Source: Liolophura sinensis (Eukaryota > Mollusca > Polyplacophora > Chitonida > Chitonidae). Taken from it: DNA of 64,000 nucleotides. Of this stretch, positions 6,991 to 50,293 are shown piece by piece. Made by a program: the position numbers and the translations under genes. The notes under the pieces were generated by a model. That model searched no databases, was not told the origin of the DNA, and saw nothing but the letters and a program-made list of their open reading frames with translations. The stretch spans positions 1 through 64,000 of the forward strand of contig NC_088296.1 of NCBI RefSeq assembly GCF_032854445.1, in the 5' to 3' direction. Numbering within the stretch: the first letter of the stretch is position 1; every line of letters begins with the position of its first letter.

Positions 6991-7574
6991 TCAGGAAGTC
7001 CTTATCATATCACAGAGAACTGGAGGCAGAGTTGCAGAGTCACCCGTTATCAGACGAGCAGACACAGACACAGATTCAGACCAGACACCAAACTCAACCG
7101 ATGGCACGAGAGGCTCTGTGACGATAACATCACTGACAGTGTACATTACCTGGTTGTTGTCACAGTCCAGGACTGTCAGTGTGTGGTCATCACAGTCCAG
7201 GTACACACCCAGGTGATGAGGTCGTGTGTAACGTCTCCACTGTAGATAGCCAGGTTTGATCTCACCACGACCACTGTGACTATCACACCTGACCTCATCA
7301 CAACGGTACTCCATCTCAATGTACCAGGAGTTACGGCCACGGTCTGTCACCTCACTCACATCACAGCTCTCTTGTGTCACTCCTACATCACAGTAACAGT
7401 CATGTGAACAGGTGATGTTTATCTCCCAGTAGTACCTGCCCGTCTGGTAACGCCCGTCTGTCACAGCTCTCCTCCACCACAACACCCAGGACAAGTCCTC
7501 AGCCTCTACCACACAGCCGCTGTCAGTGATTCTCAGCTTCCTGTCGTCTGTCTCTGTGAATCTCAGTGTCGGCT
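6991..7574 (-). CDS. TRIM gene A exon 6: PRY/SPRY (B30.2) domain
   Basis: Last coding exon, preceded by a pyrimidine-rich acceptor ending tttttacag. It begins with two bases completing a lysine codon from exon 5. The domain runs from PTLRFTETDD (PRY start) through GRYYWEI and LGVYLDCDDHTLTVLD to a C-terminal DMIRTS. These are PRY/SPRY landmarks: the WEI strand, the LGVYLD strand and the EPLVP loop. Replacements relative to gene B cluster at residues 414-436, 485-515 and 551-569. Confidence 0.9.
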
Positions 7575-10500
7575 CTGTAAAAACAAAACAGAAGCAGCAT
7601 AAACAACAGCAAACCACAAACACACGCTGTAAGACTGAGGTGTAAATACCTGTACACCTACCGTGGTTTTACTTGCTCAACACAATCTCTTGAAATAAAA
7701 TGACATATATTTTTGACATTAATGTAATTTATATACAGATCCCTGTCATTTTCAGCCAGTTTAAAAGAGTTGAGCTTCGACAAGAACTATATCCATCACT
7801 AAATGACGGGTACGACATAGACATAGACTAAGTACTGGGTTAAAATACAGGCTTTTAGCGGTCTAATTTGTTTAAAACTTATCACTTACAACAAGAATAA
7901 TACCTTCCTCTATCCAGCCATTGGTTTTAGTTGGCAGTTATGGCACATTTGAACACTCAATTCACTATCAAGCTGCAGTAGGCCTGTTGTCATTCGTGGA
8001 GTACCGAAGCCGTCTGTGTAATAAGGAAGGTAACTCGCCACACATAACTTACCAAGTGACTTTCATTGTCACAATACCCCCAAAGACTATTTAATCCACC
8101 AGAAGTAGTCAGCTAAATTTTCTTCAATTTGCCATTTTTTTTAAAGATACCTAAATATTTAAATATTAACAACAAAGTTATATTGAGGGAGAAAGGATAT
8201 GTAAACCTCATACTCTTATACATGGAATCTATACCCTTTAACAACAATAATGAAACAGATATGAGGGCATTTTTTCTCTTTTTCCCCCCTTTGAAATAAG
8301 TGTTTGACTACATTTGAATCTAGGAAATAATGGCGAATTTTTACTTGAATACATGTGTCAGTAATAATTAGGGGGCCTCCGTGGTTGAGTTGGTTAGCGC
8401 GCTAGCGCAGCGTAATGAAACAGAAGGCTCTTACCATGCAATGCGGTCGCTGTGAGTTCAAGTCCAGCTCATGCTGGCCTCCTCTTCCGCCGTTCGTATA
8501 AAGGTCTTTCAGCAACCTGCAGTTGGTCGTGGGTTTCCACCGGGCTATGCCCAGTTTCCTCCAACCATAATGCTTGCCACCGTCGTCTAAGTGAAATATT
8601 CTTGAGTACGACGTAAAGCACAAAAAATTGGGTGCAACATGTTATCTGTCCTGCTCTAAGAGTGTACACCTGCTCTTGTACACATGGAGTAAACATCACC
8701 CAGACACCACAGAATACACAAACACCACTCCTGATCTAACATTACACGCGCTGATTTGCAAATACAAAGTAGACACCGATGGCTTCACTACCATCTGTTC
8801 TGATCTAATTTTGCAGCTGCTGATATATAATTCTGCTATGTACCTTCCTTTTTTTGTGACTTCTGGGCCAACTGTACGTTAATCTGAATCTCGTGTGCAC
8901 ATCCTTCTGTGTACCTCACATTAGTCTGTGTCGTCTGTGCCCACCCTACTGTATAGCCTACCTCACATATTAGCCTGTGTCTTCTGTGCACACCCTACTG
9001 TATACCTCACCTTAGTCTGTGTCTCCTGTGCACATCCTACTGTATAACTCAAATTAGCCTTTGTCTTCTGTGCACACTCTACCGTATACCTCACATTAGC
9101 CTGTGTCTTCTGTGCACACCCTACTGTATACCTCGTACTAGACTGTGTCTTCTGTGCACACCCTACTGTATAACTCACATTAGCCTGTGTCGTCTGTACA
9201 CACCTTACTGTATACTTCCTAGTAGCCTGTGTCTTCTGTGCACACCCTACTGTATACCTCACATTAGCCTGTGTCGTCTGTGCACATACTACTGTATAAC
9301 TCACATTAGCCTGGGTCCTCTGTGCACACCCTACTGTATAACTCAAATAAACCTTTGTCTTCTGTGCACAATCTACCGTATACCTCACATTAGCCTGTGT
9401 CTTCTGTGCACACCCTACTGTATACCTCGTATTAGCCTGTGTTTTCTGTGCACACCCTACTTTATAACTCACATTAGCCTGTGTCTTCTGTACACACCTT
9501 ACTATATACTTCCTAGTAGCCTGTGTCTTCTGTGCACACCCTACTGTATACCTCACATTAGCCTGTGTCTTCTGTGCACATACTAATGTATAACTCACAT
9601 TAGCCTGTGTCTTCTGTGTACACCCTACTGTATAACTCACATTAGCCTGTGTCTTCTGTGCACACCCTACTGTATACCTCGTATTAGCCTGTTTCTTCTG
9701 TGCACACCCTACTATATACCTCACCTTAGTCTGTGTCTTCTGTACACACCTTACTGTATACTTCCTAGTAGCCTGTGTCTTCTGTGCACACCCTACTGTA
9801 TAACTCACATTAGCCTGTGTCTTCTGTACACACCTTACTGTATATTTCCCAGTAGCCTGTGTCTTCTGTGCACACCCTACTGTATACCTCACATTAGCCT
9901 GTGTCGTCTGTGCACATCCTACTGTATAACTCACATTAGCCTGTGTCTTCTGTGCACACCCTACTGTATAACTCACATTAGCTTGTGTCTTCTGTGCACA
10001 CCCTATTGTATACCTCACATTAGCCTGTGTCGTCTGTGCACATACTACTGTATAACTCGCATTAGTCTGTGTCTTCTGTGCATATCCTACTGTATAACTC
10101 AAATTAGCCTTTGTCTTCTGTGCACACTCTACCGTATACCTCACATTAGCCTGTGTCTTCTTTGCACACCCTACTGTATACCTCGTATTAGCCTGTGTCT
10201 TCTGTGCACACCCTACTGTATAACTCACATTAGCCCGTGTCTTCTGTACACACCTTACTGTAAACTTCCTATTAGCCTGTGTCTTCTGTGCACACCCTAC
10301 TGTATACCTCACAGTAGCCTGTTTCGTCAGTGCACATACTACTGTATAACTCACATTAGCCTGTGTCTTCTGTGCACACCCTACTGTATAACTCACATTA
10401 GCCTGTGTCTTCTGTGCACACCCTATTGTATACCTCACATTAGCCTGTGTCGTCTGTGCACATACTACTGTATAACTCGCATTAGTCTGTGTCTTCTGTG

Positions 10501-13500
10501 CATATCCTACTGTATAACTCAAATTAGCCTTTGTCTTCTGTGCACACTCTACCGTATACCTCACATTAGCCTGTGTCTTCTTTGCACACCCTACTGTATA
10601 CCTCGTATTAGCCTGTGTCTTCTGTGCACACCCTACTGTATAACTCACATTAGCCCGTGTCTTCTGTACACACCTTACTGTATACTTCCTATTAGCCTGT
10701 GTCTTCTGTGCACACCCTACTGTATACCTCACAGTAGCCTGTTTCGTCTGTGCACATACTACTGTATAACTCACATTAGCCTGTGTCTTCTGTGCACACC
10801 CTACTGTATAACTCACATTAGCCTGTGTCTTCTGTGCACACCCTACTGTATACCTCACATTAGCCTGTGTCGTCTGTGCATATACTACTGTATAACTCGC
10901 ATTAGCCTGTGTCTTCTGTGCACACCCTACTGTATAACTCACCTTAACCTGTGTCTTTGCACACCCTACTGTATATCTCACATTAGCCTGTGTCTTCTGT
11001 GCACATCCTACTGTATAACTCACCTTAGCCTGTGTCTTCTGTGCACACCCTACTGTATACCTCACATTAGCCTATGTCTTCTGTGCACATCCTACTGTAT
11101 AACTCACATTAGCCTGTGTCTTATATGCACACCTTACTGTATACCTCACATTAGCCTGTGTCTTCTGTGTATATCCTAGTGTACACCTCGCATTACCCTG
11201 TGTCTTTTGTGCACACCCTACTGTATAACTCACATTAGCCTGTGTCTTCTGTGCACACCCTACTGTATAACTCACATTAGCCTATGTCTTCTGTGCACAC
11301 CCTACTGTATACCTCGTATTAGCCTGTGTCTTCTGTGCACAACCTACTGTATACCTCACCTTAGCCTGTGTCCTCTGTACACACCTTACTGTATACTTCC
11401 TAGTAGCCTGTGTCTTCTGTGCACACCCTACTGTATAATTCACATTAGCCTGTGTCTTCTGTACACACCTTACTGTATATTTCCTAGTAGCCTGTGTCTT
11501 CTGTGCACACCCTACTGTATACCTCACATTAGCCTGTGTCGTCTGTGCACATACTACTGTATAACTCACATTAGCCTGTGTCTTCTGTGCACACCCTACT
11601 GTATACATCACATTAACCTGTGTGTTCTGTGCACACCCTACTGTATACTTTACATTAGCCAGTGTCGTCTGTGCACATACTACTGTATAACTCGCATTAG
11701 CCTGTGTCTTCTGTGCACACCCTACTGTATAACTCACCTTAACCTGTGTCTTTGCACACCCTACTGTATATCTCACATTAGCCTGTGTCTTCTGTGCACA
11801 TCCTACTGTATAACTCACCTTAGCCTGTGTCTTCTGTGCACACCCTACTGTATACCTCACATTAGCCTATGTCTTCTGTGCACATCCTACTGTATAACTC
11901 ACATTAGCCTGTGTCTTATATGCACACCTTACTGTATACCTCACATTAGCCTGTGTCTTCTGTGTATATCCTAGTGTACACCTCGCATTACCCTGTGTCT
12001 TTTGTGCACACCCTACTGTATAACTCACATTAGCCTGTGTCTTCTGTGCACACCCTACTGTATAACTCACATTAGCCTATGTCTTCTGTGCACACCCTAC
12101 TGTATACCTCGTATTAGCCTGTGTCTTCTGTGCACAACCTACTGTATACCTCACCTTAGCCTGTGTCCTCTGTACACACCTTACTGTATACTTCCTAGTA
12201 GCCTGTGTCTTCTGTGCACACCCTACTGTATAATTCACATTAGCCTGTGTCTTCTGTACACACCTTACTGTATATTTCCTAGTAGCCTGTGTCTTCTGTG
12301 CACACCCTACTGTATACCTCACATTAGCCTGTGTCGTCTGTGCACATACTACTGTATAACTCACATTAACCTGTGTGTTCTGTGCACACCCTACTGTATA
12401 CTTTACATTAGCCAGTGTCGTCTGTGCACATACTACTGTATAACTCGCATTAGTCTGTGTCTTCTGTGCACATCCTACTGTATAACTCAAATTAGCCTTT
12501 GTCTTCTGTGCACACTCTACCGTATACCTCACATTAGCCTGTGTCTTCTGTGCACACCCTACTGTATACCTCGTATTAGCCTGTGTCTTCTGTGCACACC
12601 CTACTGTATAACTCACATTAGCCTGTGTCTTCTGTACACACCTTACTGTATACTTCCTAGTAGCCTGTGTCTTCTGTGCACACCCTACTGTATACCTCAC
12701 ATTAGCCTGTGTCGTCTGTGCACATACTACTGTATAACTCACATTAGCCTGTGTCTTCTGTGGACACCCTACTGTATAACTCACATTAGCCTGTGTCTTC
12801 TGTGCATACACTACTGTATAACTCACATTAGCCTGTGTCTTCTGTGCACATCCTGCTGTATACCTCACATTAGCCTGTCTCTTCTGTGCACACCCTACTG
12901 TATAACTCACCTTAACCTGTGTCTTCTGTGCACACCCTACTGTATATCTCAAATTAGCTTGTGTCTTCTGTGCACACCCTACTGTATACCTCACATTAGC
13001 CTGTGTCTTCTTTGCACATCCTGCTGTATACCTCACATTAGTCTGTGTCTTCTGTGCACACCCTACTGTATAACTCACCTTAACCTGTGTCTTTTGTGCA
13101 CACCTACTGTATATCTCACATTAGCCTGTGTCTTCTGTGCACATCCTACTGTATAACTCTTCTTAGCCTGTGTCTTCTGTGCACACCCTACTGTATACCT
13201 CACATTAGCCTTTGTCTTATATGCACACCTTACTGTATACCTCACATTAGCCTGTGTCTTCTGTGCATATCCTAGTGTACACCTCGCATTACCCTGTGTC
13301 TTCTGTGCACACCCTACTGTATAACTCACATTAGCCTGTGTCTTCTGCGCACATGCTTCTGTATATCTCAAATAAGCCTCTCTCCTCTGGGCTAACCATA
13401 CTGTATATCTGACAATAATTTGTATATTCCGGGCACACACTACTCTATACCACACATTAATTAGCATCCTTTCACCTACCCTATCTCTTGCCTAACATTA

Positions 13501-16500
13501 ATGTGTATGGTTTATACTATCTGTACTTTGCAAACTCTTCTCACTTTCGTCTCTCTTGGAATACTGTTTATTTTCTTGGCACGCCACGGACATATCGGTT
13601 TTGTTTTCTTAACAGAGTCTATCGTGTGTTTTGCAGGTACACAGCCGTTCGCCTTCTCCATTTTTGTCTGTGTCTTCGATGCACACACTAATGTAAACCC
13701 TACAGTCCTTTATGTCGTCTAAGCACACCCTACTGACTGCCTTTTATACATAAGAACTTACTTGTAACACGTAGGGGAGATATTTGTCCACCGACTGCTG
13801 CTTCTAAGTCCTGGCGATCTTGCATTGTCTCTTTTACAGTCACCTGTCTAGGAACAACTTGGTCATGTTGTACAGAAGCTAGAAGCTTCTGTCTGCTGAC
13901 CTCATGTTTCTCCAGTTCTGCTCTTATCCCATTCAGCTGGTCATCAGTTCTGCGAGAAGAGGAGAGAAAACAAAGAGACACAGTCGTGTAGTGATCTTGT
14001 GTCCGCGCAGTTATAAGAATGACATGATGTACTATTCCTAGTAGGTTAGATCTAATTTGTCTCGACAAATGTAACATTGAACATCTCACACTTGAGTCAT
14101 GTTTTGGACAACTACAGCTTACAGAAACACATCTGCTGACAATAGTCACGTGCGCATGTATAACAAACATGGGGAGGTATAACACATTTATACATACGTT
14201 TTGGTGAAGTCCGTGGAACCCTGTCAACAAACAGAATTGAGCCTATATATAAAATCAAGTAAAGAAGAAACAGATACCTCTCCAGAGACACACAGTACAA
14301 AAGCACCCTTGGCTTTTACCTCCAACATCTAGACCATTCCCTGATCTTTTATATAGCCCATATCAGCTCTCAGTTCCGCTTAATAAATTCCATTGTGCTT
14401 CATACAATACAATTTCCCCTTATTTGCAAATCTGTTTACATACAAACCTTTTACCTCTTTTTAAAAAAAACAGCATACAATATGTTATTTTTGACATTAC
14501 ATGTTGCTACTTTATTGCATTAAACGGACCGAGGGGTACCACTGAGCAGAATAAAGCTGTTGAACTCAGGATCTAAAACTTTAGCAGATCTGGAAGCATG
14601 AGGTGGATTTGAATACCTGATCACAGTTCCTAAGGGTGGTTTGGGTCTTAGGTAACGTCTGTGGTAGAGGCAGCTGAACTAATGTTAGAGATTGTGACTG
14701 ATATGCTTGACTTACCTGCAAAAACTCCACGTCCATTGATGCTAATAAATCATTGGAAGCCTGTACCATCCTCTCCATTTCCTGGGCCTGTAGCTGTAAA
14801 TGTTTGAGTATAGCACTACACTCCACACTCCACTGTGAATAGCGGGTTCTTATGCCATCTAAGGAGTGCTGCCTCCAGGCTTGTAAGGCTTCCAAGGCTG
14901 CACAATAAGCCTTTTCTACCTCCTGAGTGTGAAGCTTCTGGTTTTCCTGCCAAACAGAAAAATCGTTTATCACCTCATCCACACCTTAAGAACTGCGTGT
15001 TCAAGTAGTTATATATGCATGCGTAAAAGGGTGAACTATACGCGCCACATAACAGTGTGTCTCCGGGGTGGAGGGAATTTCCCTTTAATCCAGTGATGTA
15101 CATGTAAGTGTCCACTCAAAACCCCAAAGGTACGTCGGTCAACCTCTAAAAGGGTCGTGCCATCAAAACTGATGCTCCGAGCATGGTGAAGCCTTAGAAG
15201 CTTCCAACCTCAGACACCTGGGGCTGGTTTAAACACAAACGTTGTCGCCCCATCCGATCAAATGGTGACGTGTATATATTATAGATATTATTATAACAGC
15301 GCATGATCAGAGATGATATATCAAATGGAGTTGTCTGAGGTGGGCATATCGCGTGTGTGTCACTGAGAAGAAAGTCATAATAATGATACGATAGTCTGAT
15401 CAGACAAGCCAGAAATAAGTAAATAGACCCGTCCTTCACGCAAATAAATCACCGCATCAGTCCGTGTATTCCCCTGTTCTGTTCTGATAAGTTCTGATAA
15501 AAAGTCGTCAATATTCGGGTTTAACTCTTTAATTGTAATCTACATATATATTATGTGACAGAATAAGCTTTAATAGCAATATTCTACATACTCAAAATGA
15601 GCCACAACAACATGAGACTGAACAGGTGTCATGGAAAATACCAACCTGTATCTTACTGTGCAGCCTCAGAACTCCTGACAGTGATTCCTTAGTTTCGCCT
15701 AAGACTTTCTTCAGTTCATTAGTCATGCTGAAAACAGCTGGCTGTAATGGAAAAAAAGCTACATTAAAAAATCCGCCTTTCAAATGACTCACTACAGTAC
15801 AGGACAAAATGTCCTATTCTTCACTACACATCATAAATTTTAGGTCAGTAAACAGTTCAAAATCATGCCATATTTATTTTGATTATCGCCGTATATACTA
15901 GCATGGTACACGATTTAGATAGTGATTTAAGTTATTCGCCCAGAACGTTCATTGCTTCTTTCTAGTATCAATGAAAACTGTTTATCACTTTTCTTTGCAT
16001 GATTCCAAAGTAATTTTGAACTTACACAATTTCTTAGTTTTTCGTGGCTTGTGTTAATAGTCGTTTTGGGAAATGACCACACGAGTATTGACTCCATTTT
16101 GGTTGATGGCTGATATACGAATATCTTTTTCACATTACCTTGTCATTCTCAGCTGCTGATGGTATATCCCGCATAGCGTGTCCCTGATGCTCAATCACAC
16201 ACCCCATACAGATCACCATCCGACACGGTTCACAGTACAAGCCGAATGGCTGACCATGTCTCGCACACGACGGCTGCTGGGTTGATTGGTGGTCCCTGCT
16301 GACTTGACCCTGTGAGGTTTCCTGAGAGAGGTACTCCAGGGGCGAAATCAGTTGGTGACGTTTCAGAGGACCCCTCATTGGGTGACAAAAAGATAGACAT
16401 TCCTCACAGTAGAACACACCACAGTTGGTACAAAACTTGACAGCTTTGACGTGATTACCTTCCTCACACAGAGAACAATATGGGGCGTCATCCTCAACAA

Positions 16501-16807
16501 TTACACCAGATGAGAACTTCTCCACAACATCTGCCAGGTGAAAGTTGGGAGGCAGACCAGCTACACCATCTCTCCCCACACTGGTTGGTGACCGACACAC
16601 AGGGCATGCTATCAGCTGATGAACGTCCTCATACCCAGTGCTGTCGGAGCTCTCGTCTGTCTGTACATGTTTGAACTTGTCAGCGTACGAATCAATGCAT
16701 ACACTACAGAAACTGTGCTGACAGGGTAGCATTACTGGTTTCCGGAATGTTTCCGTGCATATCGAACAGGTGAGAACATCATCCCGCTTCTGCATGCTTT
16801 CGGCCAT
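6991..16807 (-). CDS. TRIM gene A: RING-B-box1-B-box2-coiled coil-PRY/SPRY E3 ubiquitin ligase
   Basis: Predicted TRIM-family E3 ubiquitin ligase of 596 aa. Coding exons on the minus strand are 16139-16807 (669 bp), 15646-15741 (96), 14716-14946 (231), 14198-14220 (23), 13762-13949 (188) and 6991-7574 (584, stop at 6991). All junctions are GT..AG and phases join as 0,0,0,2,1 without a stop. RING ligands are C14, C17, C29, H31, C34, C37, C68, C71; B-box1 spans about 111-153; B-box2 ligands are C181, H184, C192, C195, C200, C203, H207, H210. Coiled coil covers about 224-332 and PRY/SPRY about 404-596. The RING would recruit an E2 enzyme, the coiled coil dimerise, and SPRY bind the target. The 96/231/23 bp exon pattern is the one known for vertebrate SPRY-TRIM genes. 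Intron 5 (6.2 kb) holds the 42 bp minisatellite. Antiviral or immune function is inferred from the family only. Confidence 0.9.
8370..8628 (+). mobile_element. Full-length tRNA-derived SINE in intron 5 of TRIM gene A
   Basis: Starts with a tRNA-like head: ggggcctccgtggttgagtt gives an A-box-like stretch and ggtcgctgtgagttcaagtc a B-box-like stretch. It ends with the 3' block aagtgaaatattcttgagta and an A-rich tail. It is absent from the matching place in unit B (about 42430), so it inserted after the duplication. It resembles SINEs common in mollusc genomes; the exact named family was not determined. Confidence 0.85.
8897..13460. repeat. Large 42 bp minisatellite in intron 5 of TRIM gene A
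   Basis: About 108 tandem units of 42 bp, a multiple of three. In the sense direction of the TRIM gene the unit reads as 14 residues like RYTVGCAQKTQANV; on the other strand as SLCLLCTPYCITHI. Both strands therefore have very long open frames (700 codons at 8963-11065 minus), explained by periodicity and not by a gene. Higher-order repeats are visible: a 420 bp block at about 10000 recurs at 10420, and a 795 bp block at about 11060 recurs at 11855. The 795 bp length reflects one unit 3 bp short. A much smaller, degenerate version lies in the same intron of gene B. Confidence 0.95.
13762..13949 (-). CDS. TRIM gene A exon 5: linker after coiled coil
   Basis: An exon of 188 bp, identical in length to gene B. 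The acceptor is ttctcgcag and the donor CAA then GTAAGT. It encodes a charged helical stretch starting TDDQLNGIRAELEKHEVSRQ and ending near SPLRVT. Its first base completes a codon begun in the 23 bp microexon; without the microexon an immediate TGA would be read. Its final base forms a lysine codon with the SPRY exon. Confidence 0.85.
14198..14220 (-). CDS. TRIM gene A 23 bp microexon
   Basis: A 23 bp exon bounded by acceptor ttctgtttgttgacag and donor GTATGT, encoding GSTDFTK plus two bases. It restores the frame between the 231 bp exon (phase 0) and the 188 bp exon (which needs two preceding bases). The same 23 bases occur at 45540-45562 in gene B with no change. Vertebrate SPRY-TRIM genes carry a 23 bp exon at the same position. 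Confidence 0.85.
14716..14946 (-). CDS. TRIM gene A 231 bp coiled-coil exon
   Basis: Exactly 231 bp (77 codons, phase 0 at both ends), from ENQKLHTQEVEKAYCAALEA to MDVEFLQ. Acceptor is ctgtttggcag and donor CAG then GTAAGT. Heptad-like spacing and many E, Q, K and L residues fit the TRIM dimerising coiled coil. It differs from gene B at about 28 of 231 bases and 13 of 77 residues, so many differences here are synonymous, unlike in SPRY. Confidence 0.9.
15646..15741 (-). CDS. TRIM gene A 96 bp coiled-coil exon
   Basis: Exactly 96 bp (32 codons, phase 0). It encodes a helical segment from PAVFSMTNELKKVLGETK to LRLHSKIQ. Acceptor is ttccattacag and donor CAG then GTTGGT. Size, phase and position directly after the B-box exon match the conserved 96 bp exon of vertebrate TRIM genes. 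Confidence 0.9.
16139..16807 (-). CDS. TRIM gene A exon with ATG: RING, B-box1, B-box2
   Basis: Encodes residues 1-223, starting MAESMQKRDDVLTCSIC and ending PSAAENDK before donor GTAATG. The first ATG is chosen because the matching MAES start is conserved in gene B and sits just before the RING. A polypyrimidine stretch with AAG about 34 bases upstream (exon would begin at 16841) suggests that an untranslated 5' exon is spliced on. All RING and both B-box zinc ligands are present. Confidence 0.9.
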
Positions 16808-34589: not shown

Positions 34590-35830
34590 CGTACCACAAC
34601 AGAGAAGATGGGTACTTGTAAAATGTAATGTGTGAACCAGGTGTCATCCAGAGAGGAAACCCATCACACGTTGAAAGATACACGTTAGCACCCAGTATTA
34701 CATGTAGAAAGAGAGAAAAACCAGCTCTCCTGAGAAGATACACATCATTTAATGTGTGAACCCGGTATTAGAGAGATGGGAAATCCATCTCTGCTGTGAA
34801 GATACACATCAGGTAATGTGTGAACCCGGTATTAGAGAGACAGGAAAACCAGCCCTCCTGAAAAGTCACACATCAGGTAATATACGGACAAGGTATCAGA
34901 CAGAGATGAAATCCACGACACCTGAGAAGATATACATCAGGTAATGTGTGGACCCGGTATTAGAGAGATGGGAAAACCATCTCTCCTGAGAAGATACACA
35001 TCAGGTAATGTGTGAACCCGGTATTAGAGAGATGGGAAATCCATCTCTGCTGGGAAGATACACATCAGGTAATGTGTGAACCCGGTATTAGAGAGAGAGC
35101 AAAACCAGCCCTCCTGAAAAGTAAAACATCAGATAATTTCTGGGCCCTATATTACAGAGAGAGGGAAACCATCTCTCTTGAGAAAATACACATCAGGTAA
35201 TGTGTGGACCCGGTATTGCAGATAGAGGGGAAAACCAGCTCTTCAGAGAAAATACACATCAGTAAATGTGTGGGCCCGGTGATAGAAAGAGAGGAAAACC
35301 AGCTCCCCTGAGAAGACAGACATGAGTTAATGTGTGCACCCGGTATTAGAGAGGAAAACCGGTTCTCCAGAGAAAATACACACCAGTCAATATGTTGACC
35401 AGGTATTACAGAGAGAGGAAAACCAGCTCTCCAGAGAAGATACACATCAGTTAATGTGTGGACCCGGTGATAGAAAGAGAGAAAAACCAGCTCTCCAGAG
35501 AAGATACACATCAGTTAATGGGTAGACCTGGTGAAAGAAAGAGAGGAAAACCAGCTCCCTTGGGAAGATACACATCAGTTAATGTGTGACCCCGGTATTA
35601 GAGAGGAAAACCAGCCCTCCTAAGAAAATACACATCATGTAATGTGTTGACCAGGTATTATAGAGAGAGGAAAACCAGCTCTCCAGATAAGATACACATC
35701 AGTTCATGTGTGGGCCGGGTGACAAAAAGAGATGACAACCAGCTCCCCTAAGAAGATACGCATCAGTTAATGTCAGGGCCCGGTATCAGAAAGAGAGGAA
35801 ACTCAGCACTACTGATAACACACCCATGAG
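34590..35830. repeat. Minisatellite, 64 bp units (unit B)
   Basis: About 18-19 units of the family described at 330-2010. It lacks several of the near-identical units of unit A, so copy number changed after duplication. Confidence 0.95.
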
Positions 35831-40764: not shown

Positions 40765-41342
40765 TCAGGAAGTGCTTATCATATCACAGAGAACTGGAGG
40801 CAGAGTTGCAGAGTCACCCGTTACCAGACGAGCAGACACAGACACAGATCCAGACCTGACACGAAACTCAACCCGTGGCACGAGAGGCTCTGTGACGCTA
40901 ACACCACTGACAGTGTACATTACCTTGTTGTTGTCACAGTCCAGGACTGTCAGTGTGTGGTCATCACAGTCCAGGTACACACCCAGGTGATGAGGTCGTG
41001 TGTAACGTCTGTCCTGTAGATAGCCAGGTTTGATCTCACCACCATTGTGACTATAACACCAGACGTTATCACCACTGTACACCATCTCAATGTACCAGGT
41101 GTTACGGCCACGGTCTGTCTCCTCACTCACATCACAGCTCTCCTGTGTCACTCCTACATCACAGTAACAGCCATGTGAACATGTGATGTGTATCTCCCAG
41201 TAGTACCTGCCCGTCTGGTAACGCCCGTCTGTCACAGCTCTCCTCCACCTCCACCCGTACAAGTCCTCACCCTTTACCACACAGTCGCTGTCAGTGATTC
41301 TCAGCTCACTGTCGTCTGTCTCTGTGAATCTCAGCGTCAGCT
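40765..41342 (-). CDS. TRIM gene B exon 6: PRY/SPRY domain
   Basis: An open PRY/SPRY frame from LTLRFTETDDSELRI to DMISTS, with GRYYWEI and LGVYLDCDDHTLTVLD unchanged from gene A. The start is placed by alignment to gene A, because no AG lies at 41344-41343. Two codons are missing relative to gene A, one in the 431-435 block and one at R505. Nearly all substitutions change the amino acid. An undisturbed frame suggests that the acceptor loss is recent or bypassed. Confidence 0.75.
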
Positions 41343-44300
41343 TTGCAAAAACACAAGAGAAGCAGCATAAACAACAGCAAACCATAAACACACGCTGTAA
41401 GACTGAGGTGTAAATACCTGTGCACATACCGTGTTTTACTTGCTCAACACAATCTCTTAGGATAAAATGACACATATTTCTGACATGAATATAGTTTATA
41501 TACAGATCTCTGTCATTTTCAGCCAGTATAAAAAAGGTGAGCTTCGACAAGAACTGGATCCATCACTAAATGACGGCTACAGCTTAGACCAAGTACTGGG
41601 ATAAAACACAGACTTATAGCGCTGTAAATTCCTTGAAACTTATCACCTACAACAAGAACAATACCTTCCTCTATCCGACACTTGATTTTAGTTGTCTGTT
41701 ATGGCACATTTGTGAAGCTGTAGTAGGCCTGTTGTCATTCGTGGAGTAACAAGCTACCAAAGCCGTCTGTCTACTAAGGGAAGTAACTCGCCACACATAA
41801 CTTACCAAGTGACTTTGTCTTGCTAAAGGATCCTAAAGACTATTTAATCCATCAGAATTATTAGTAGTGAAGAAGTATTAGACTCAATTTTTTTTCAATA
41901 TATTTTTTGAATGATGGTTAAATATTTAAATATAAAAACCAAACTTATACCAAGTGAGGAAATACATGTAAATCTCATACTCTCATAAATGGAGTCTCTA
42001 CCCTCATAGAAATGCTCTACAGGAATTCTAAAGAAGTGTTCTTGAGGACAGCCCAGGGGTTCTATAGGACAGCGCTGGGGCTCTACAGGACAGCGCTGTG
42101 GCTCTATAGGACAGCGTTGGGGATCTACAGGACAGCCAAGGGGTCCTATAGAACAGCGCTGGGGTTCTATAGGACAGCGCTGTGGTTCTAAAGGACAGCG
42201 TTGGGGTTCTACAGGACAGCCAAGGGGTCCTATAGAACAGCGCTGGGGTTTAACAGGACAACCCTGGGGTTCTATAGGACAGCGCTGGGGTTCTACAGGA
42301 CAGCCCTGGTGTTCTATAACTATTAATAATGAAAGAGATATGAGGGTTTTATCTCCCTTTGAAATAAGTGTTTGACTACATTTGAATCTAGCAAATAATG
42401 GCGAGATTTTACCTGGATACTTCTTCATAAATAATTAAGTGAGTTGACATATATTCTGTTATCAGTTATATGTTAAATATCACAGGTCTAGACACTGAGG
42501 GATAGGTAACAATATGTTACTGTTCTGCCCTAACAGTACACCTGTTGATTTGTACACATGGGGTAAATATCTCTCAGGCACTCAGGGGTAGTATGTGTTA
42601 TATGTTCTGTATTAACAGTAGACCAACTGATTTGTATACATGAGGTAAATATCACTCAGACACTGAGGGGCACACTTTCATCTGCCCTGCTCTAACAAAA
42701 TACACCTGCTGATTTGTACACATGGGTTAAATATCACCCAGACCCCGGCGGGTACACTTCCATCTGTCCTGCTCTAACAATATATTTATTTTTTTATTGA
42801 TTTATTGATTTATTTTTTTTTTATTTATTTGATTGGTGTTTTACGCAGCACTTAAGAATATTTCACCCATACGACGGCGGCCAGCATACATGGGGCAAAT
42901 ATCACCGAGACACACTGAGGGGGACACTTTCATCTGTCCTGCTCTAACAGTATACACCTGCTGATTTGTACACACGGGGTAAATATCACCCAGAACATGA
43001 CCGGCACACTTTCATCAATCCTGCTATAACAGTAAACACCTGCTAACTTGTATACATAGGGAAAATATCACCCGGCAATGAGGGGTACTCTGCCAGTGCA
43101 TTTGCTAATTTGTACACATAGAATACATGTTACCTGGACAGTGAGAGGTACCCTGCCATCTGTCCTCTTCTAACAGTGCATTTGCTAATTTGTACACATG
43201 GAGCATATATCACCCAGATACTGAGTGGTACACTGCCATCTGTATTTCCTTGGCAGTAAAATTGATGAGTTCTACTGATGAGGTAATTATCACCCAGACA
43301 CTAAACGGTACACTACTATGTGTCCTGTTCTAACAGTGCTCCTGTTGATTTGTATACATAAGGTAAATATCACCCAGGCACTAAAGAATACACACACACC
43401 AGTCCTGATCTAACAGTACACCTGCTAATTTGTACACATACAGTAAACATACCGTTATGTACACTACATTTTTATTTATTTTTAGCAAACCATTGCTTAC
43501 ACTGGCTTTATATTTCTTACAATGGCCTACTGAATGCCTTTTAACTTCTGAGCCCACTGTAAACTTTACAAGTACCACGCACTATTTTATGTCTCACATT
43601 AGTTTGTGTCCTCTGTACACGTCTACTGTGTACCTCACATTAGTTTTTGTCTTCTGGGCACACCCTACTGTACACCTCACATTAGTTTTTGTCTTCTGGG
43701 CACATCCCACTGTATACCTCAGATCAGTTTGTGTCTGTGCACACCCTAATGTATACCTCACATTAATCTGTGTCTTCTGTGCACACCCTAATGTATACCT
43801 CACATTAATCTGTGTCTTCTGTGCACACCTCATTGTATACCTGACGTTAGTTTGCACCCTGTGTGCACTTTCTACTGTATACCTCCCATGAGTCTATGTG
43901 TTCTGTGCACATCTTACTGTATAACTTACAGTAGTTTGCGTCTTGTGTGCACATCCGATTGTATACCTCACATTAGCTTGTATCCTCTGTGCACATCCTA
44001 CCGTATACCTGATACTAGTTTGTCTTCTGTGCACATTCAATTGTATACCTGATATTAGTTTGTATGTTTTTCCCACACTAGTGCACGCCTAAAATTAGTT
44101 TGTATCGATTATGCCCACCCTATTGTATGCCTCACAATACCTTTTGTCTTTTTTACTCACCCTATTGCATGCCTCACATTTGTTTGTTTCTCGTTTTGCC
44201 CACCCTAGTGCATGCCTCACATTAGTTTGTATCTTGTTTTGCCCACCCTATTGCACGCCTCACATTAGTTAGTATCTTGTTTTGCCCACCCTAGTGCATG

Positions 44301-47300
44301 CCTCACATTAGTTTGTATCTTGTTTTGCCCACCCTAGTGCATGCCTCACATTAGTTTGTATCTTGTTTTGCCCAACCTAGTGCATACCTTACATTAGTTT
44401 GTGTCTTGTTTTGCCAACCCTATTGCATGCCTTACATTAGTTTGTAAGGGAATAGATTAGTTTATTTATTTATTTATTTTATTTTTTTTGATTGGTGTTT
44501 TACGCCGTACTCAAGAACATTTCACTTATACGACGACGACCAGCATTATGGTGGATGGAAACCGGGCAGAGCCCGGGGGAAACCCAAGACCATCCACAGG
44601 TTGCTTCCAGACCTTCACACTTACGGCCGGAGAGGAAACCAGCATGAGCTGGACTTGAACTCACAGCGACCGCAATGGTGAGAGGCTCCTGGGTCATTAC
44701 GCTGCGCTAGCGCGCTAATCGACTGAGCCGCGGAGGCCTCCGGGAATGGATAAGTTTACGTGTTATGTTTTGTGCACACCCTAATGCATGTCTCACATTA
44801 GTTTGTGTCCTCTGTATACCCTCTACTTACACCTTGCATTACTTTGTGTCTTTTGCCCACACTCTACTGTAACCTGAGTGTTTTTCTCAGTGCGCCCAAC
44901 TGTATTACAACTCATATCGGTTTGTTTGTTTCCTTGACACAGTCTACCGTTTGTTTTCCGCATACACATCTGTGCACCTTCTCCATTTTATGTTTGTGTC
45001 CTCGATGCACATACTAATGTAAACCCTATAGTCATTTATGTCATCTGAGCACACCCTACTGTATACCTTTTATACATATAAGAACCTACTTGTAACACGT
45101 AGGGGTGACATTTGCCCACCGACTGCTGCTTCTAAGTCCTGACGTTCTTGTACTGTTTCTTTCACAGTCACCTGTCTAGGAACAACTTGGTCATGTTGTA
45201 CAGAATCTAGAAGCTTCTGTCTGCTGACCTCATGTTTCTCCATATCAGCTCTTATTTCATCCAGCTGGTCATCAATTCTGTGAGAAGAGAAGAAAAAGCA
45301 AAGAGACGCTGTCGTGAAGTAATCAACGCAGTTGTGAGAATGTCATGATGTACTATTCCTAGTGGATTAGATCTAATTTGTCTGGACAAACGTATGCTTG
45401 TACACTAGATATATTTTACACTTGAGTCATGTTTTGGACAACTACAGTGCTGGTACCCATTTTTACAGAAACATACCTGCTGACAATAGTCACGTGCATG
45501 TATAACAAACCTAGAGAGGTATAACACATTTATACATACGTTTTGGTGAAGTCCGTGGAACCCTGTCAACAAACAGAATTGAAAACGCATACAGAACCAT
45601 GTAAAGATGATAAGTAAAACTGAGATACTGTGGCTATACTTTCACCTCAGCATGTAACAAGAACAGGGGTATAATTGAAATAATTGGATCATATCTCCCC
45701 AAGTATACAGGCACCTTTGGCTTTTACCTCAAGCATTTATACCATTCCCTGGTCTATTACATAGTCCACATCAGCTCTCAATTCCGATTAACAAATTCCA
45801 TGGTGCTGCATACAATGTAATTTTCCAAGATCTGTCTACATACAAACCTTGTTTTTTAAAAACAGCATACAATATGTTCCTCTTGACATTACATGCTCCT
45901 TTTTCATTGTTTAAATCAAACAGTGGTTCGGTTGTAGGTAGAAAAGTTGACAGCAACCATAGGGTACCACTGAGCAAAATAAAGCTGTTGAACTTTAAGG
46001 ATCTAAAACCTTAGCAGATCAGGCAGCATGAGATGGTTTTGAAGACATGATTACAGTTCCTAAGGGTAACTGGGTGATGGGTAACATCTGGAGTTGAGGC
46101 ACCTGAACCAATAGTTGAGACTGTGCACATTTGACTTACCATTAAAAACTCGACGTCCACTGACGCTAACAAATTTTTGGAAGCCTGTACCATCCTATCG
46201 ATTTCCTGAGCCTGTATTTGGACATTTTTTAGAAGGGCGCTACACTCCACACACCACTGTGAATAGCGGGTTTTTATACCATCTAAGGAGTGCTGCCTCC
46301 AGGCTTGTAAAGCTTCCAAGGCTGCACAATAAGCCTTTTCGACCTCCTGAGTGTGAAGTTCCTGGTTTTCCTGCCAAGCAGAGAAATCATTTATTACCTC
46401 ATCCAGACCTTAAGAAATATGTGTTCAAGAAGTTATATATGTATGTTTAACAGGGTGAAAGATAAGCACCAAACAACTGTGGCTACAATGTATCTCTGGG
46501 GTGGAGGGGATTTCCCTGCAGTCCACGGATGTATATGTAAGTGTCGACTCAAACCCCAAGGTACGTGGTTCAATCCCCAAATGGGTCGTGCCATCACAAC
46601 TGATCCTCTGTGCAGGGCGAGATGGTGTAGCCTTAGATGGTTTGTAGAGTAGCTCAGATGCCTGGGGCTGGTTCAAACCCGAAAGTTGTCGCCTCATTAG
46701 ATCAAATGTTTTACGTGTAGGCCTATGTATTATAGATATTATTATGACAGCATATGATGGGCGATGATATACCAAATGTTTTACATTTGGGCATAACGCG
46801 TGTGTGTCACTAATAAGAAAGCCATATTAATGATACGATAGTCTGTTTAGATAAACCAGAGATAGGTAAAATAGACACGTCCATCACACATATAAATCCC
46901 CACATCAGTCCGTACATTACCCTGTTTTTATTGGAAGTCGTCACTGTTCGGGATTAACTCTTTAATTTAAATGTACATATGTAATGTGTGGCAGAATAGA
47001 ACTTTATCAAAACTAGATGATTGACAGCTGTATGTTACCTGGACTTGTGAATGATAGCAATATTATAGATACTTAAAATGCGTCACCAGTTTATGGAGGG
47101 CAACACAGGCTGAACAGGTGCCATGGAGAATACCAACCTGTATCTTATTGTGCAGCCTCCTAACTCCTGACAGTGATTCTTTGGTTTGTTGTAAGACATT
47201 CTCCAGCTCACTAGTCCTGCTCAAAACAGCTGGCTGTAATGACAATTAAATCATTACCTGTCAATTATGGGAGACATTTGTTGAATTATTTCTCATTGAC

Positions 47301-50293
47301 TGGCTTGTCTAACATCGGTTTTATGCTGAAGTCAAGACTACTTTCTTTACATGCGAAAGGGAAAAAACAAAAAAAAAAACAAAAACACTGGCCTTACACT
47401 TGTCAGTAATATGGGGGAGGAAACTTGACTTTTGCAGATAAAAACAGTGACCTGATCTGTCCGATTGTCAGTCATATGACAAAAGGCAGAAAAAACCACT
47501 GGCCTTACACAAAGACTTGGCAGTGATGTGGGGAGAGGAAACAAGGCATAACCAGGAGAAACGACTGGCCTTAGTGGACGGCCTGTCAGCGATGTGGGGA
47601 TAGGAAACAAGCCATTGCCAGGAGCAAAACCACAGTATTCACATGACGGCCTGTCAACGATGTGGGAGAGGAAATAAGACATTGCCAGTAGAAAACCATA
47701 GTCCTGACTTGACGGCCTGTCAGTTCTGTGAGGGGTAGGAAACAAGCCATAGCCTGGAGAAAACCACAGTCCTCACATGACGGCCTGTCAGCGATGTGGG
47801 AGAGGAAATAAGACATTGCTAGTAGAAAACCATAGTCCTGACTTGACGGCCTGTCAGTTCTGTGAGGGGAGGAAACAAGCCATAGCCTGGAGAAAACCAC
47901 AGTCCTCACATGACGGCCTGTCAGTTCTGTGAGGGAGGAAACAAGCCATAGCCTGGAGAAAACCATAGTCCTGACTTGACGGCCTGTCAGCGATGTGAGA
48001 GAGGAAATAAGGCATGACGAGGAGACAACCACTGGCCTTACATGACGGCCTATCAGTTCTGTGAGGGAGGAAACAAGGTATAGCGAGGAGACAACCACTG
48101 GCCTTACATGACGGCCTGTCAGCGATGTGGCAGAGGAAACAAGGTATAGCGAGGAGATAACCACTGGTCTAACATGACGGTATCTCAGTGATGTGAGGAA
48201 ACAAGGTATAGCGAGGAGACAACCACTGGCCTCACATGACGGCCTGTCAGCGATGTGAGAGAGGAAATAAGGCATTGCCAGTAGAAAACCATAGTCCTGA
48301 CTTGACGGCCTGTCAGTTCTGTGAGGGAGGAAACAAGGCATAGCGAGGAGACAACCACTGGCCTTACATGACGGCCTGTCAGCGATGTGGCAGAGGAAAC
48401 AAGGTAGCCTATAGCGACGAGACAACCACTGGTCTAACATGACGGTATCTCAGTGTTGTGAGGAAACAAGGCATAGCCAGGAGAAAACCACTGACCTTAC
48501 ATGACGGCCTGTCAGTGACATGGAAGCAGAAACAATGCGTAGCGAGGAGAAAACCACTGGCCTTACACGACGACCTCTCAGCAATGTGGGAGAGGAGAGA
48601 GAGCATACATGACGCGACATACACGTGTGTCTTCACAACCTTAGACTAAGATACCTTATTTAGATCAATAGCTCATATTCACAGATAAACCCTATATGGT
48701 TATGGTTTTTCAAGTTTTAACTAAGTTTTCTTTCTTTTTTAATGGTTTTTCAACATGTTCGTCAATTTCGGTTTTATTGTTGGTGTTCTCTTTCAGTCGA
48801 ACTGGCTTGTGCTTTCAACTTGTTCTCGCCACGATATGACTTGAAAATTGCCGATGTGGCGTTAAGCTATAGTCATTCATTCATTCATTCACAGCCTTAG
48901 ACTCCACGATCAACACAGTAGTACATGTATCTGGGTACATATACTCAATGTCAACGACCTCAATGTCAACCGCCGAGTTTGCAAGGTTCCTGAAGTTTGG
49001 ATGTTCTTAGAATTTGGACTTATGGTATGGGGAGACTTCTAACACAGCTACATGTTCCATACTCAACTGCTAATTGTTGTAGCTAATTCAACATGAAAAT
49101 GTGTTTAAAGTGATAGCCGTTTAGCTAGTCAATGACTAGCCATTTTCTGCATGAAGTAATTAGGAACTAAGCTCCGTAGTCAATTGCCTCTTGCTCATTT
49201 TTGTTATTATGATGACATTTTATTAACGATCTGGAGTGATCATATATTCTCAGATATTTAAAGATAACACTTTTATCAATTCGACTTTCACACGATTTAC
49301 TACAGTACAGGAGAAAATATCCCGTTCTTCACTGTTTTATAGAAACGTTTGGCTCATAGTTCCAAACCATGACATGTTTTGAATATCGACAATTTATTAA
49401 CTAGCATGGTAAATGATTTGAATACTGATTTTTAATTCATTCGTCTGTTCTCTGCTCCTTTGTGCATGATTTCGTTCTAATTTTTTAATGTATATAATTT
49501 TTTTTTGTGGTTTGTGTTGAACGTCTCTTTGGGATTTGGTCTCGCGCGACTATTGACGCGGAACGTCCATTTTGGCGATTTGCTGGTACACGAAGGTCTG
49601 TCTCGGCGCATAGATACATTAGGGCCTTACCTTGTCTTTTTCAGCTGCAGATGGTACATCTCGCATAGCGTGTCCCGCATGTTCAACCACACAACCCGTA
49701 CAAATCACCATTCGACACGGTTCACAGTACAAGTCGAATGACCGACCGTGTCTGGGGCATGACGGCTGCTGAGTTGATTGATCATCCCCGCTGACCTGTC
49801 GCTGTGTGGTTTCCTGGGCGAGATACTCCAGGGACGAAACCAGCTGGTGACGCTTAATAGCACCCATCATGGGATGAAAAGAAGCCAGACAGTCTTTACA
49901 ATACAGTAAAGAACAGTTGGTACAAAACTTGACAGCTTTAGCCTGATTTTCCTCCCCACACAGAGAACAACATGGGATGTCATCCTCAACCTTAACAGCA
50001 GAAGAGAACCTCTCAACTATTTCTGCCAGATGAAAGTTGGGAGGCAGACCAGCCACACCTTCTCTCCCCAGACTGGTTGGTGTCCGACATACAGGGCATG
50101 AGATCAGCTGATCAACACTCCCCGTGCCGCAGGTGACCTCATCTGTCTGTCCAGGTTTAGACCTGTCAGCATACACAGCAATACACTCTCTGCAAAAACT
50201 GTGCTGACAAGGTAATGTTACTGGTTTCCGGAATTTTTCCACACATATCGGGCATGTAAGAACCTCTTCGCGATTTTCCTTGCTTTCAGCCAT
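40765..50293 (-). CDS. TRIM gene B: RING-B-box1-B-box2-coiled coil-PRY/SPRY, SPRY acceptor mutated
   Basis: Paralogue of TRIM gene A. Exons are 49631-50293 (663 bp), 47138-47233 (96), 46140-46370 (231), 45540-45562 (23), 45090-45277 (188) and 40765-41342 (578, stop at 40765). The model would encode 592 aa. RING ligands are C14, C17, C29, H31, C34, C37, C66, C69; B-box2 runs from C179 to H208. All frames are open, but the expected SPRY acceptor reads gcaa where gene A has acag, so the AG is lost. The next AG, two bases on, shifts the frame and soon meets a stop. The gene may therefore make a RING/B-box/coiled-coil protein without SPRY, use another acceptor, or be an early pseudogene. Intron 1 (2.4 kb) contains a minisatellite absent from gene A, whose intron 1 is 397 bp. 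Confidence 0.8.
42035..42320. repeat. 21 bp minisatellite in intron 5 of gene B
   Basis: About 13-14 units of 21 bp of the form ctataggacagcgctggggt. On the minus strand each reads as 7 residues like RCPIEPQ, giving a false open frame. The matching place in unit A (near 8235) has no array, so it arose in unit B or was lost from A. Confidence 0.95.
42490..43450. repeat. Roughly 80 bp diverged minisatellite in intron 5 of gene B
   Basis: About 11 irregular units with taacagtacacctgctgatt, tgtacacatggggtaaatat and cacccagacactgagggg. Gene A keeps only one or two units (8630-8800). A SINE interrupts it at 42783-42895. Confidence 0.85.
42783..42895 (-). mobile_element. 5'-truncated tRNA-derived SINE
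   Basis: A T-rich tail, then gattggtgttttacgcagca and catacgacggcggccagcat; the head is missing. It is inserted within the 80 bp array. Confidence 0.85.
43575..45070. repeat. Degenerate 42 bp minisatellite in intron 5 of gene B
   Basis: About 20 diverged units related to the large array of gene A (tgtatacctcacattagttt, gtgtcttctgtgcacaccct), becoming more degenerate toward 44450. A SINE splits it at 44462-44742, and a few units resume to about 45070. It is far shorter and more diverged internally than in gene A. Confidence 0.9.
44462..44742 (-). mobile_element. Full-length tRNA-derived SINE
   Basis: The best-preserved copy: T-rich tail, gattggtgttttacgccgta, cagcattatggtggatgga, gggcagagcccgggggaaac, then the tRNA-like head ending gcgctaatcgactgagccgc. 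It is absent from the matching array end in gene A. Confidence 0.9.
45090..45277 (-). CDS. TRIM gene B exon 5: linker after coiled coil
   Basis: 188 bp, acceptor cttctcacag, donor CAA then GTAGGT (GTAAGT in gene A, so slightly weaker). It encodes IDDQLDEIRADMEKHEVSRQ onward to SPLRVT. Confidence 0.85.
45540..45562 (-). CDS. TRIM gene B 23 bp microexon
   Basis: Identical over all 23 bases to 14198-14220 of gene A, with the same acceptor (tgacag) and donor (GTATGT). Confidence 0.85.
46140..46370 (-). CDS. TRIM gene B 231 bp coiled-coil exon
   Basis: 231 bp, phase 0, from ENQELHTQEVEKAYCAALEA to VDVEFLM. The donor is ATG then GTAAGT, and the acceptor follows the gene A pattern (ttggcag). Confidence 0.9.
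47138..47233 (-). CDS. TRIM gene B 96 bp coiled-coil exon
   Basis: 96 bp, phase 0, from PAVLSRTSELENVLQQTK to RRLHNKIQ. Acceptor gtcattacag, donor CAG then GTTGGT. Confidence 0.9.
47405..48605. repeat. Roughly 66 bp minisatellite in intron 1 of gene B
   Basis: About 18 units with gacggcctgtcagcgatgtg, then aggaaacaaggcatag and gagaaaaccactggcctt. It produces a false 284-codon open frame on the minus strand. Intron 1 of gene A lacks it. Confidence 0.95.
48790..48897 (+). mobile_element. Short SINE-like element, second family
   Basis: gaactggcttgtgctttcaa, then ccacgatatgac and gccgatgtggcgttaagcta, ending in repeats of attc. Its end resembles the LINE 3' tail. Confidence 0.65.
48898..49630. 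other. Rest of intron 1 of gene B
   Basis: No gene or repeat recognised. The last 350 bases align loosely with intron 1 of gene A (15742-16138). Confidence 0.5.
49631..50293 (-). CDS. TRIM gene B exon with ATG: RING, B-box1, B-box2
   Basis: Residues 1-221, starting MAESKENREEVLTCPIC and ending PSAAEKDK before donor GTAAGG. All zinc ligands are kept. The ATG at 50291-50293 is preferred to the upstream in-frame ATG at 50440. A strong acceptor (tttatattttcttttgcag, exon beginning at 50311) lies 18 bases before it, which places the upstream frame in an intron. This implies a noncoding 5' exon further upstream. Confidence 0.9.

Follow-up and report, generated by a model that had tools for sequence, protein, structure and literature searches.

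The window analysed here, the first 64,000 nucleotides of contig NC_088296.1 of the chiton Liolophura sinensis, contains two genes of the TRIM type, A and B, on the minus strand (Table 1). Gene A consists of six exons spanning 16807-6991 which, when spliced in a single frame, encode a protein with a C-terminal SPRY domain, the order RING, two B-boxes, coiled coil and SPRY meeting that of TRIM (RBCC)-SPRY proteins; for this frame test, the letters of exon 4 were taken from the identical gene B copy. Both genes have Pfam matches to RING, two B-boxes (one ANCHR-like and one zf-B_box) and SPRY, while the coiled coil of gene A matches TRIM_CC only beneath the cut-off (17.4 vs 30 bits). The series of 96, 231 and 23 bp exons resembles that of other TRIM genes.

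Table 1. Features of genes A and B within the 64,000 nt window
Feature	Position	Strand	Basis
Gene A exon 1, RING and two B-boxes, ATG start	16139..16807	-	Pfam, frame test
Gene A exon 2, 96 bp	15646..15741	-	Frame test
Gene A exon 3, 231 bp, coiled coil	14716..14946	-	Frame test; Pfam TRIM_CC match below cut-off
Gene A exon 4, 23 bp, letters identical to gene B 45540-45562	14198..14220	-	Read from sequence
Gene A exon 5, 188 bp, ends in phase 1 ahead of SPRY exon	13762..13949	-	Frame test
Gene A SPRY (B30.2) exon, 584 bp, last coding exon, stop TGA	6991..7574	-	Pfam PF00622, E 9e-09; frame continuous with the five preceding exons
Variable cluster 1, exon residues 11-34	7471..7542	-	10 of the 40 codons with piN > 0.2: 11, 12, 20, 24, 26, 28, 29, 30, 32, 34
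Variable cluster 2, exon residues 57-112, including 62, 86 and 88	7237..7404	-	Diversity; TRIM21 alignment
Variable cluster 3, exon residues 158-164, alternating (158, 160, 162, 164)	7081..7101	-	Diversity
42 bp minisatellite, about 109 copies, gene A intron 5	8894..13459	.	Repeat scan
Gene B exon 1, RING and B-boxes	49631..50293	-	Pfam; end counted from donor string
Gene B exon 3, coiled coil	46140..46370	-	Ends read by eye
Gene B exon 4, 23 bp	45540..45562	-	Frame test
Gene B exon 5, 188 bp	45090..45277	-	Sequence
Gene B SPRY exon, frame open, canonical acceptor AG lost	40765..41342	-	Pfam PF00622, E 7e-10; acceptor context
42 bp minisatellite, unit similar to that of gene A, gene B intron 5	43593..44445	.	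Repeat scan

No position was identified for exon 2 in the search for gene B exons. At the SPRY acceptor of gene B (41340-41346), GCAAAG replaces GCAGAG and the canonical AG is consequently absent, making this gene the sole exception among 67 extracted copies, the other 66 all retaining it; were the next AG, 2 bp further on, used as the acceptor, a stop would follow after 11 codons. Gene B may be a young pseudogene, may undergo altered splicing or may reflect an assembly error, each being possible. In both genes the SPRY-bearing block is flanked on either side by 64 bp and 42 bp minisatellites, at 452-2001 and 34705-35815 as well as in the two fifth introns. These might conceivably be hotspots of recombination or exchange, a suggestion that rests on their position only. 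A dispersed repeat of a kind common in molluscs, recognisable by the motif TTGGTGTTTTACGC or its complement, has copies in the window at 8373-8640, 42800-42890 and 44450-44740.

In a search of the 609 Mb genome, in which the window is the start of a 28 Mb contig (C2), the gene A SPRY exon has 125 matches at E ≤ 0.001, of which 66 have an identity of at least 68%, are near full length and lack stops; C2 carries 55 of them. A RING match, partial in a few cases, lies upstream on the same strand at a distance of 4.6-18 kb for 62 of the 66 copies. The others are open-frame SPRY exons without a RING match within 40 kb upstream, designated L003 (C2:2916072), L021 (C76:66063), L039 (C12:3854565) and L051 (C12:3764010), and could be orphan cassettes; the L003 exon is 97% identical to that of gene A. 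At least five further matches, with at least 66% identity over at least 150 residues, contain in-frame stops. Matches that contained stops or were split or partial were excluded from the copy set, and L067 (56% identity) was left out of all SPRY statistics. L002, L017 and L064, near copies of L001, L014 and L063, were removed from the family statistics, giving 63 non-redundant copies, but kept in a histogram of the 2145 pairs formed by 66 copies. From 62 linked RING and 60 linked coiled-coil places, 58 of each were taken, with short matches omitted, and 55 of each were analysed after these same three genes had been dropped; 51 genes have all three exons. Only one assembly was used, and the copies may include alleles. 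The host's position among the molluscs is borne out by eight units of the molluscan Pfam family Haemocyan_bet_s in tandem and by a COX1 gene containing in-frame TGA.

The initial annotation of the window had proposed diversifying selection on a ligand-binding surface from the SPRY exons of genes A and B. Its count of three silent codons (T405, T457 and Q470) held exactly, these being the only purely synonymous codons (exon residues 2, 54 and 67), and its tally of about 27 replacement codons, a rebuilt block at 431-435 and two indels also stood, with 32 replacement codons on recounting, four of them inside the block (exon residues 28-32), and two single-codon indels. The positions of the clusters it described (414-436, 485-515 and 551-569) were likewise confirmed. 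By the NG86 method, the codon alignment of the two exons gives 36.75 nonsynonymous (N) differences on 443.8 sites and 3.25 synonymous (S) differences on 129.2 sites, a ratio of 3.4. The claim that adjoining noncoding DNA differs by about 4-5% was only partly borne out: divergence of a few per cent is restricted to the 3' flank (1-9% per 100 bp), whereas the intron upstream of the SPRY exon differs by 7% over the 100 bp nearest the exon, by 12-21% between 100 and 800 bp and by 30-41% in the 400 bp beyond, so that the tract recently shared by A and B extends only outward from the SPRY side. About half of the differences in the 231 bp coiled-coil exon are silent, as had been stated (14.5 N, 14.5 S), but this exon fails as a control of equal age because it lies outside the shared tract, A-B dS being 0.42 there and 0.52 in the RING exon, as opposed to 0.026 in SPRY. 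What had been missed is that two genes are insufficient as evidence. The A-B ratio is unsafe because B may be a decaying copy and the tract is shared on the SPRY side only; in addition, silent divergence in SPRY appears to be low because the exon has been homogenised or exchanged among genes, and the ratio of 3.4 would therefore partly reflect a lowered dS.

Estimating dN/dS with more paralogues, which could have refuted the original reading, did not do so. With SPRY variants so near linkage equilibrium, codon site models based on a single tree are doubtful; the analysis relied instead on pi calculated without a tree, on frequency classes and on recent pairs, so that single codons carry no significance of their own. 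Across the 63 copies, piN is 0.106 and piS 0.067 in the SPRY exon, a ratio of 1.59 (95% CI 1.21-2.08, bootstrap over codons). The RING/B-box exon (piN 0.107, piS 0.288; ratio 0.37, 0.30-0.45) and the coiled coil (piN 0.073, piS 0.269; ratio 0.27, 0.21-0.35) are, on this measure, under purifying selection. Similarly, mean pairwise dN and dS are 0.113 and 0.068 for SPRY (dN/dS 1.66), with dN exceeding dS in 94.8% of 1953 pairs; the equivalent values are 0.117 and 0.380 for RING and 0.077 and 0.348 for the coiled coil, where dN exceeds dS in 0.3% and 0.8%, respectively, of 1485 pairs. When each variant was counted once and N/S expressed relative to the flank mutation spectrum, the value for SPRY rose from 1.13 among single-copy variants to 3.02 among those present in more than eight copies (69 N, 8 S; Fisher P 0.011), opposite to the trend in RING and the coiled coil, where it fell from 0.83 to 0.34 and from 0.71 to 0.15, respectively, between rarer and commoner variants.

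Most of the replacement diversity is held by 40 of the 191 SPRY codons, those with piN > 0.2 (piN 0.316, piS 0.124), a descriptive cut with no per-site test behind it; the other 151 have piN 0.049 and piS 0.053. Diversity at the first, second and third positions of the 33 codons with amino acid diversity above 0.5 is 0.31, 0.41 and 0.13, and amino acid diversity in the variable codons reaches 0.5-0.84; fourfold diversity is 0.047. Recent duplicates allow comparison with flanking DNA: 11 disjoint pairs with flank divergence of 1.8-3.1%, chosen by hand among the 30 closest listed, have 28-43 replacements each, pN being 3.45 times the flank value (CI 3.05-3.90), and the excess change begins and ends at the SPRY exon. 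The corresponding pS/flank ratio of 1.87 (1.37-2.37) is possibly inflated by several hits per codon, and fourfold sites differ at 28 of 861 positions (3.3%) vs 231 of 9653 (2.4%) in the flanks (P 0.13). The three youngest pairs (flank divergence 0.3-0.9%), which were left out of the ratio, show no excess, having 1, 2 and 2 replacements where 1.5, 1.5 and 3.9 would be expected. There is thus strong support for selection favouring amino acid replacement in SPRY, concentrated in about 40 of 191 codons, albeit without a per-site test. The earlier proposition that SPRY changes by replacement at or above the neutral rate is upheld by the recent pairs, and the diversifying selection it invoked is supported as far as selection goes; surface exposure and a ligand are inferred only.

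A number of observations suggest that pieces of the SPRY exon are also exchanged between genes. Within the same genes, silent divergence is lower in SPRY than in RING and coiled coil, five- to six-fold by dS and about fourfold by piS. Across 378 pairs of 28 copies, divergence forms a trough at the exon, with a median of 0.069 inside, shoulders of 0.08-0.14 to 500 bp upstream and 0.06-0.13 to 400 bp downstream, and values of 0.21-0.30 past 700 bp upstream and 0.21-0.27 past 400 bp downstream. Recent duplicates are barely more alike in the SPRY exon than distant copies, dN being 0.091 at flank divergence of 2-5% (77 pairs) vs 0.110-0.119 at 10-15% (1461/2019 pairs). Likewise, nearest neighbours by RING are much closer than other genes in both the upstream (0.065 vs 0.132) and downstream flanks (0.100 vs 0.155), but SPRY dN is only 0.100 vs 0.113. 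The number of replacements per pair is bimodal, with five of the 2145 pairs below 10, none at 10-20, 12 at 20-25 and 2128 at 25 or more, and every pair outside the youngest pairs and the L001/L002/L003 trio has at least 20. One mosaic is formed by gene A and the L002 gene, which have in common the SPRY exon and 6.7 kb at 97%, with a dS of 0.33 between their coiled-coil exons.

Linkage and phylogenetic signal were measured in the SPRY exon, its flanks and RING. For first- and second-position sites at least 10 bp apart in the 51 genes, r2 in SPRY is 0.0221, as against 0.0204 in a shuffled null (sd 0.0008; highest of 20 shuffles 0.0215), showing that SPRY variants are near linkage equilibrium with r2 slightly exceeding the null; r2 is 0.054 in RING, 0.055 in the upstream flank and 0.142 in the downstream flank. 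Cross r2 is 0.069 between RING and the downstream flank, 0.062 between RING and the upstream flank and 0.029 between RING and SPRY. The mean z of the RING-tree signal (55 genes) is 3.9-6.6 in upstream bins and 2.7 in the last 50 bp, 0.3-1.7 in bins within the SPRY exon, and 5.0, 5.6, 1.3 (three sites), 5.5, 2.7, 3.2, 3.3 and 4.5 in successive downstream bins, the range for flanks within 400 bp of the exon being 1.3-6.6. At silent exon sites (n = 7) this signal is 1.45 vs 4.30 at matched flank sites (n = 179; P 0.004, neighbouring sites being non-independent), and four markers of loop length are distributed at random over the RING tree (P 0.18-0.73).

Other results limit this inference. SPRY distances correlate with those of the upstream flank in Mantel tests (rho 0.41 for dN and 0.36 for dS, P 0.003 each), which does not fit a complete decoupling of the exon from its gene; the values are 0.20 for RING vs upstream flank and 0.07 for upstream vs downstream flank (P 0.19). 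Hence per-site signal and r2 indicate decoupling, and the upstream-flank Mantel test indicates that it is not whole. Clustering on the RING tree at P ≤ 0.02 was seen for three of 19 markers, namely one silent site and residues 20 and 148, and clustering on the flank tree at P ≤ 0.035 for four of the 19; of the seven silent sites in the exon, two that lie close to its ends retain strong RING-tree signal. The PHI recombination test gave P 0.003 at w = 5, 0.22 at w = 20 and 0.93 at w = 50, and an imported-tract test based on allele sharing with other genes in the recent pairs found no significant difference from the flanks (268 of 347 vs 203 of 285, P 0.10). Linkage disequilibrium among silent sites within the exon, available for only five sites and ten pairs, is uninformative. 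In view of the Mantel, PHI and allele-sharing results and the residual silent-site and marker signals, selection is considered well supported and exchange likely. A candidate for a clean exon-sized conversion tract, shared by gene A and L003, was rejected: although divergence is 1.4% between their exons, against 9% and 6% in the closest 100 bp, it is just 1-5% in the intron 100-1500 bp upstream, and the shared block therefore continues in that direction.

Some of the most variable codons fall where binding residues might be expected by analogy with TRIM21, sites having been mapped by sequence and profile alignment to solved TRIM21 and MID1 chains, without a structural model. The best match of a 59-copy SPRY profile is to ret finger protein-like 1 (E 7.5e-5), with TRIM21 at 3e-4 and MID1 at 0.005. 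Contacts of the TRIM21 PRYSPRY domain include D355, W381, W383, F450, W299 and D452 (PMC6722209), the first three of which we take to be the residues spaced 0, +26 and +28 in WDLGV ... WTIWLW. These align with exon residues 62, 86 and 88, ranked 3, 10 and 6 of 191 by piN; F450, at the edge of the alignment, corresponds to conserved residue 163 between variable residues 162 and 164, and W299 and D452 are outside it. Three of the four contact residues within this weak profile alignment are therefore top-10 variable codons. Cluster 1 precedes the RYQTGRYYWE strand, and the first variable region of TRIM5 also lies ahead of the position of a strand of this type. This placement of the variable sites is suggestive of a binding surface, but the sequence match behind it is weak, and both exposure and ligand are inferred.

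The explanation considered likely, in the absence of expression, ligand or structural data, is that diversifying selection on a ligand-binding surface is combined with short-tract exchange of the SPRY exon among more than 60 TRIM genes. A and B are two members of this mollusc family, which has the arrangement RING, two B-boxes, coiled coil and SPRY, and the SPRY exon, as the recognition part, would be shaped by two forces. One, which is well supported, is selection for replacements concentrated in about 40 of 191 codons, such that replacements outpace the flanking neutral DNA in recent duplicates. The other, indicated but not proven, would be gene conversion of short tracts that trades pieces of the exon among the genes of the family, bringing SPRY variants near to linkage equilibrium and leaving the exon with little memory of its host gene, which introns some tens of base pairs away would retain. 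Conversion would level silent and framework positions and re-mix binding-site variants, with selection retaining mixtures that differ. The proteins may be E3 ligases, an activity that is itself only inferred, binding foreign (probably viral) or fast-changing ligands through a pocket like that of TRIM21 or TRIM5, in which case the RING would putatively mark the ligand for degradation or signal.

Were diversifying selection acting alone, recurrent replacements at a few dozen binding codons might saturate, erasing both phylogenetic signal and linkage disequilibrium without any exchange. Consistent with this, common variants are mostly replacements (69 N to 8 S), the variable codons are highly diverse (0.5-0.84 in amino acid diversity), fourfold sites in recent pairs track the flanks, and SPRY distances are correlated with those of the upstream flank. 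We nevertheless regard it as unlikely, since it leaves unexplained the silent divergence four to six times lower in SPRY than in RING and coiled coil, the loss of signal at silent and indel markers and the jump from 1, 2 and 2 replacements in the youngest pairs to at least 20 in others.

Two further alternatives appear much weaker still. Gene conversion with relaxed constraint would have amino acids drifting in decaying copies, N exceeding S through chance or counting bias; in its favour are the lost acceptor of gene B, the five or more family matches with in-frame stops, the near-equality of piN and piS (0.049 and 0.053) outside the 40 variable codons and the near-neutral ratio of single-copy variants (1.13). 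Against it, common variants stand at 3.02 times the neutral N/S expectation, the piN/piS interval excludes 1, pN is 3.45 times the flank value in the 11 recent pairs, purifying selection acts on RING and coiled coil, and the SPRY frame is open in all 66 close copies, although these had been preselected as near full length and stop-free. Targeted germ-line hypermutation of the SPRY exon would account for excess change in recent pairs being confined to the bounds of the exon. However, third positions are spared even in variable codons (0.13 vs 0.31 and 0.41) and fourfold diversity is just 0.047, so mutation alone is insufficient, and the youngest pairs are without excess. Both are judged very improbable.

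The combination of selection with exchange has a precedent in the zebrafish NLR-B30.2 genes (Howe et al. 2016, PMC4852459), in which the B30.2 exon is homogenised between groups, as attributed to gene conversion, and is also under positive selection. Median dN, dS and dN/dS for groups 1, 2a and 3a are 0.09-0.107, 0.053-0.067 and 1.44-1.71, nearly equal to the mollusc means of 0.113, 0.068 and 1.66. The mollusc family thus meets the zebrafish-type traits of a within-genome B30.2 dN/dS above 1 (1.59, 1.21-2.08) and a B30.2 silent divergence far below that of partner domains (dS 0.068 vs 0.380 for RING and 0.348 for coiled coil). By contrast, the zebrafish proteins are NACHT-LRR-B30.2 and those of the chiton RING-B-box-coiled coil-SPRY, and linkage and the exon-edge signal, measured here, were not encountered in the consulted passages of the zebrafish report, whose authors suggested that sub-exon tracts would bring substitutions together.

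Selection on B30.2 in a multigene TRIM family is likewise known from the teleost finTRIMs, in which omega exceeds 1 at 15.6% (M2a) or 17.6% (M8) of B30.2 sites and variable sites lie in TRIM21 loops and TRIM5 hypervariable regions (PMC2657112). GARD gave one breakpoint in the finTRIM B30.2 domain, and the phrase 'gene conversion' is absent from the text of that paper. FinTRIM RING/B-box domains also have positively selected sites, whereas those of the mollusc are constrained overall (piN/piS 0.37); membership of finTRIM, a teleost family by descent, is not met, the host being a mollusc, a judgement made without a tree including finTRIM. Primate TRIM5alpha shows fast replacement in its SPRY hypervariable regions (as told in PMC2657112), but as a single gene across species rather than a large intragenomic family, and for TRIM21, matched by profile at E 3e-4, there is no evidence of a comparable Fc-like ligand in the mollusc. 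The layout of human group 2 TRIMs (RING, B-box 2 only, coiled coil and SPRY) is not met by A and B, with their two B-box matches, which are nearer to subgroup E of Sardiello et al. 2008; in that study neither group 2 nor subgroup E, the SPRY TRIMs, had an invertebrate member among the species examined. No comparable mollusc TRIM family was found in the open-licence PMC text searched, which does not show its absence from print.

Selection with conversion on B30.2 in fish NLRs, and selection in finTRIM, are therefore already known; new relative to the fish cases are the TRIM rather than NLR context, the other phylum and a loss of signal that starts and ends near the exon edges. A bolder reading, which we consider as likely to be wrong as right, is that SPRY is a freely recombining module, sub-exon tracts of which are traded among more than 60 genes on several contigs, with binding residues near linkage equilibrium and exchange fading at the exon edges, amounting to a germline combinatorial recogniser parallel to fish NLR-B30.2. 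With dN and dS almost equal between fish and this mollusc TRIM family, B30.2 exons would represent a means of recognising changing ligands that has been arrived at more than once, here in an animal not known to have antibodies. With 63 aligned natural variants on one scaffold and neutral DNA adjoining, both the source of variation, exchange or mutation, and the ligand of the SPRY pocket become directly testable.

The genome search also identified, at C13:3.2-28.4 Mb, further RING and SPRY matches that form a separate and more divergent set, most with 30-58% SPRY identity, and may serve as an outgroup. Partial RING matches of the A/B family form an array at C3:25382897-25392809, several being spaced 583 bp apart. 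Contig C99 contains seven COX1 copies about 15.5 kb apart, with an eighth on C632; the C99 series is likely to be a mitochondrial concatemer in the assembly.
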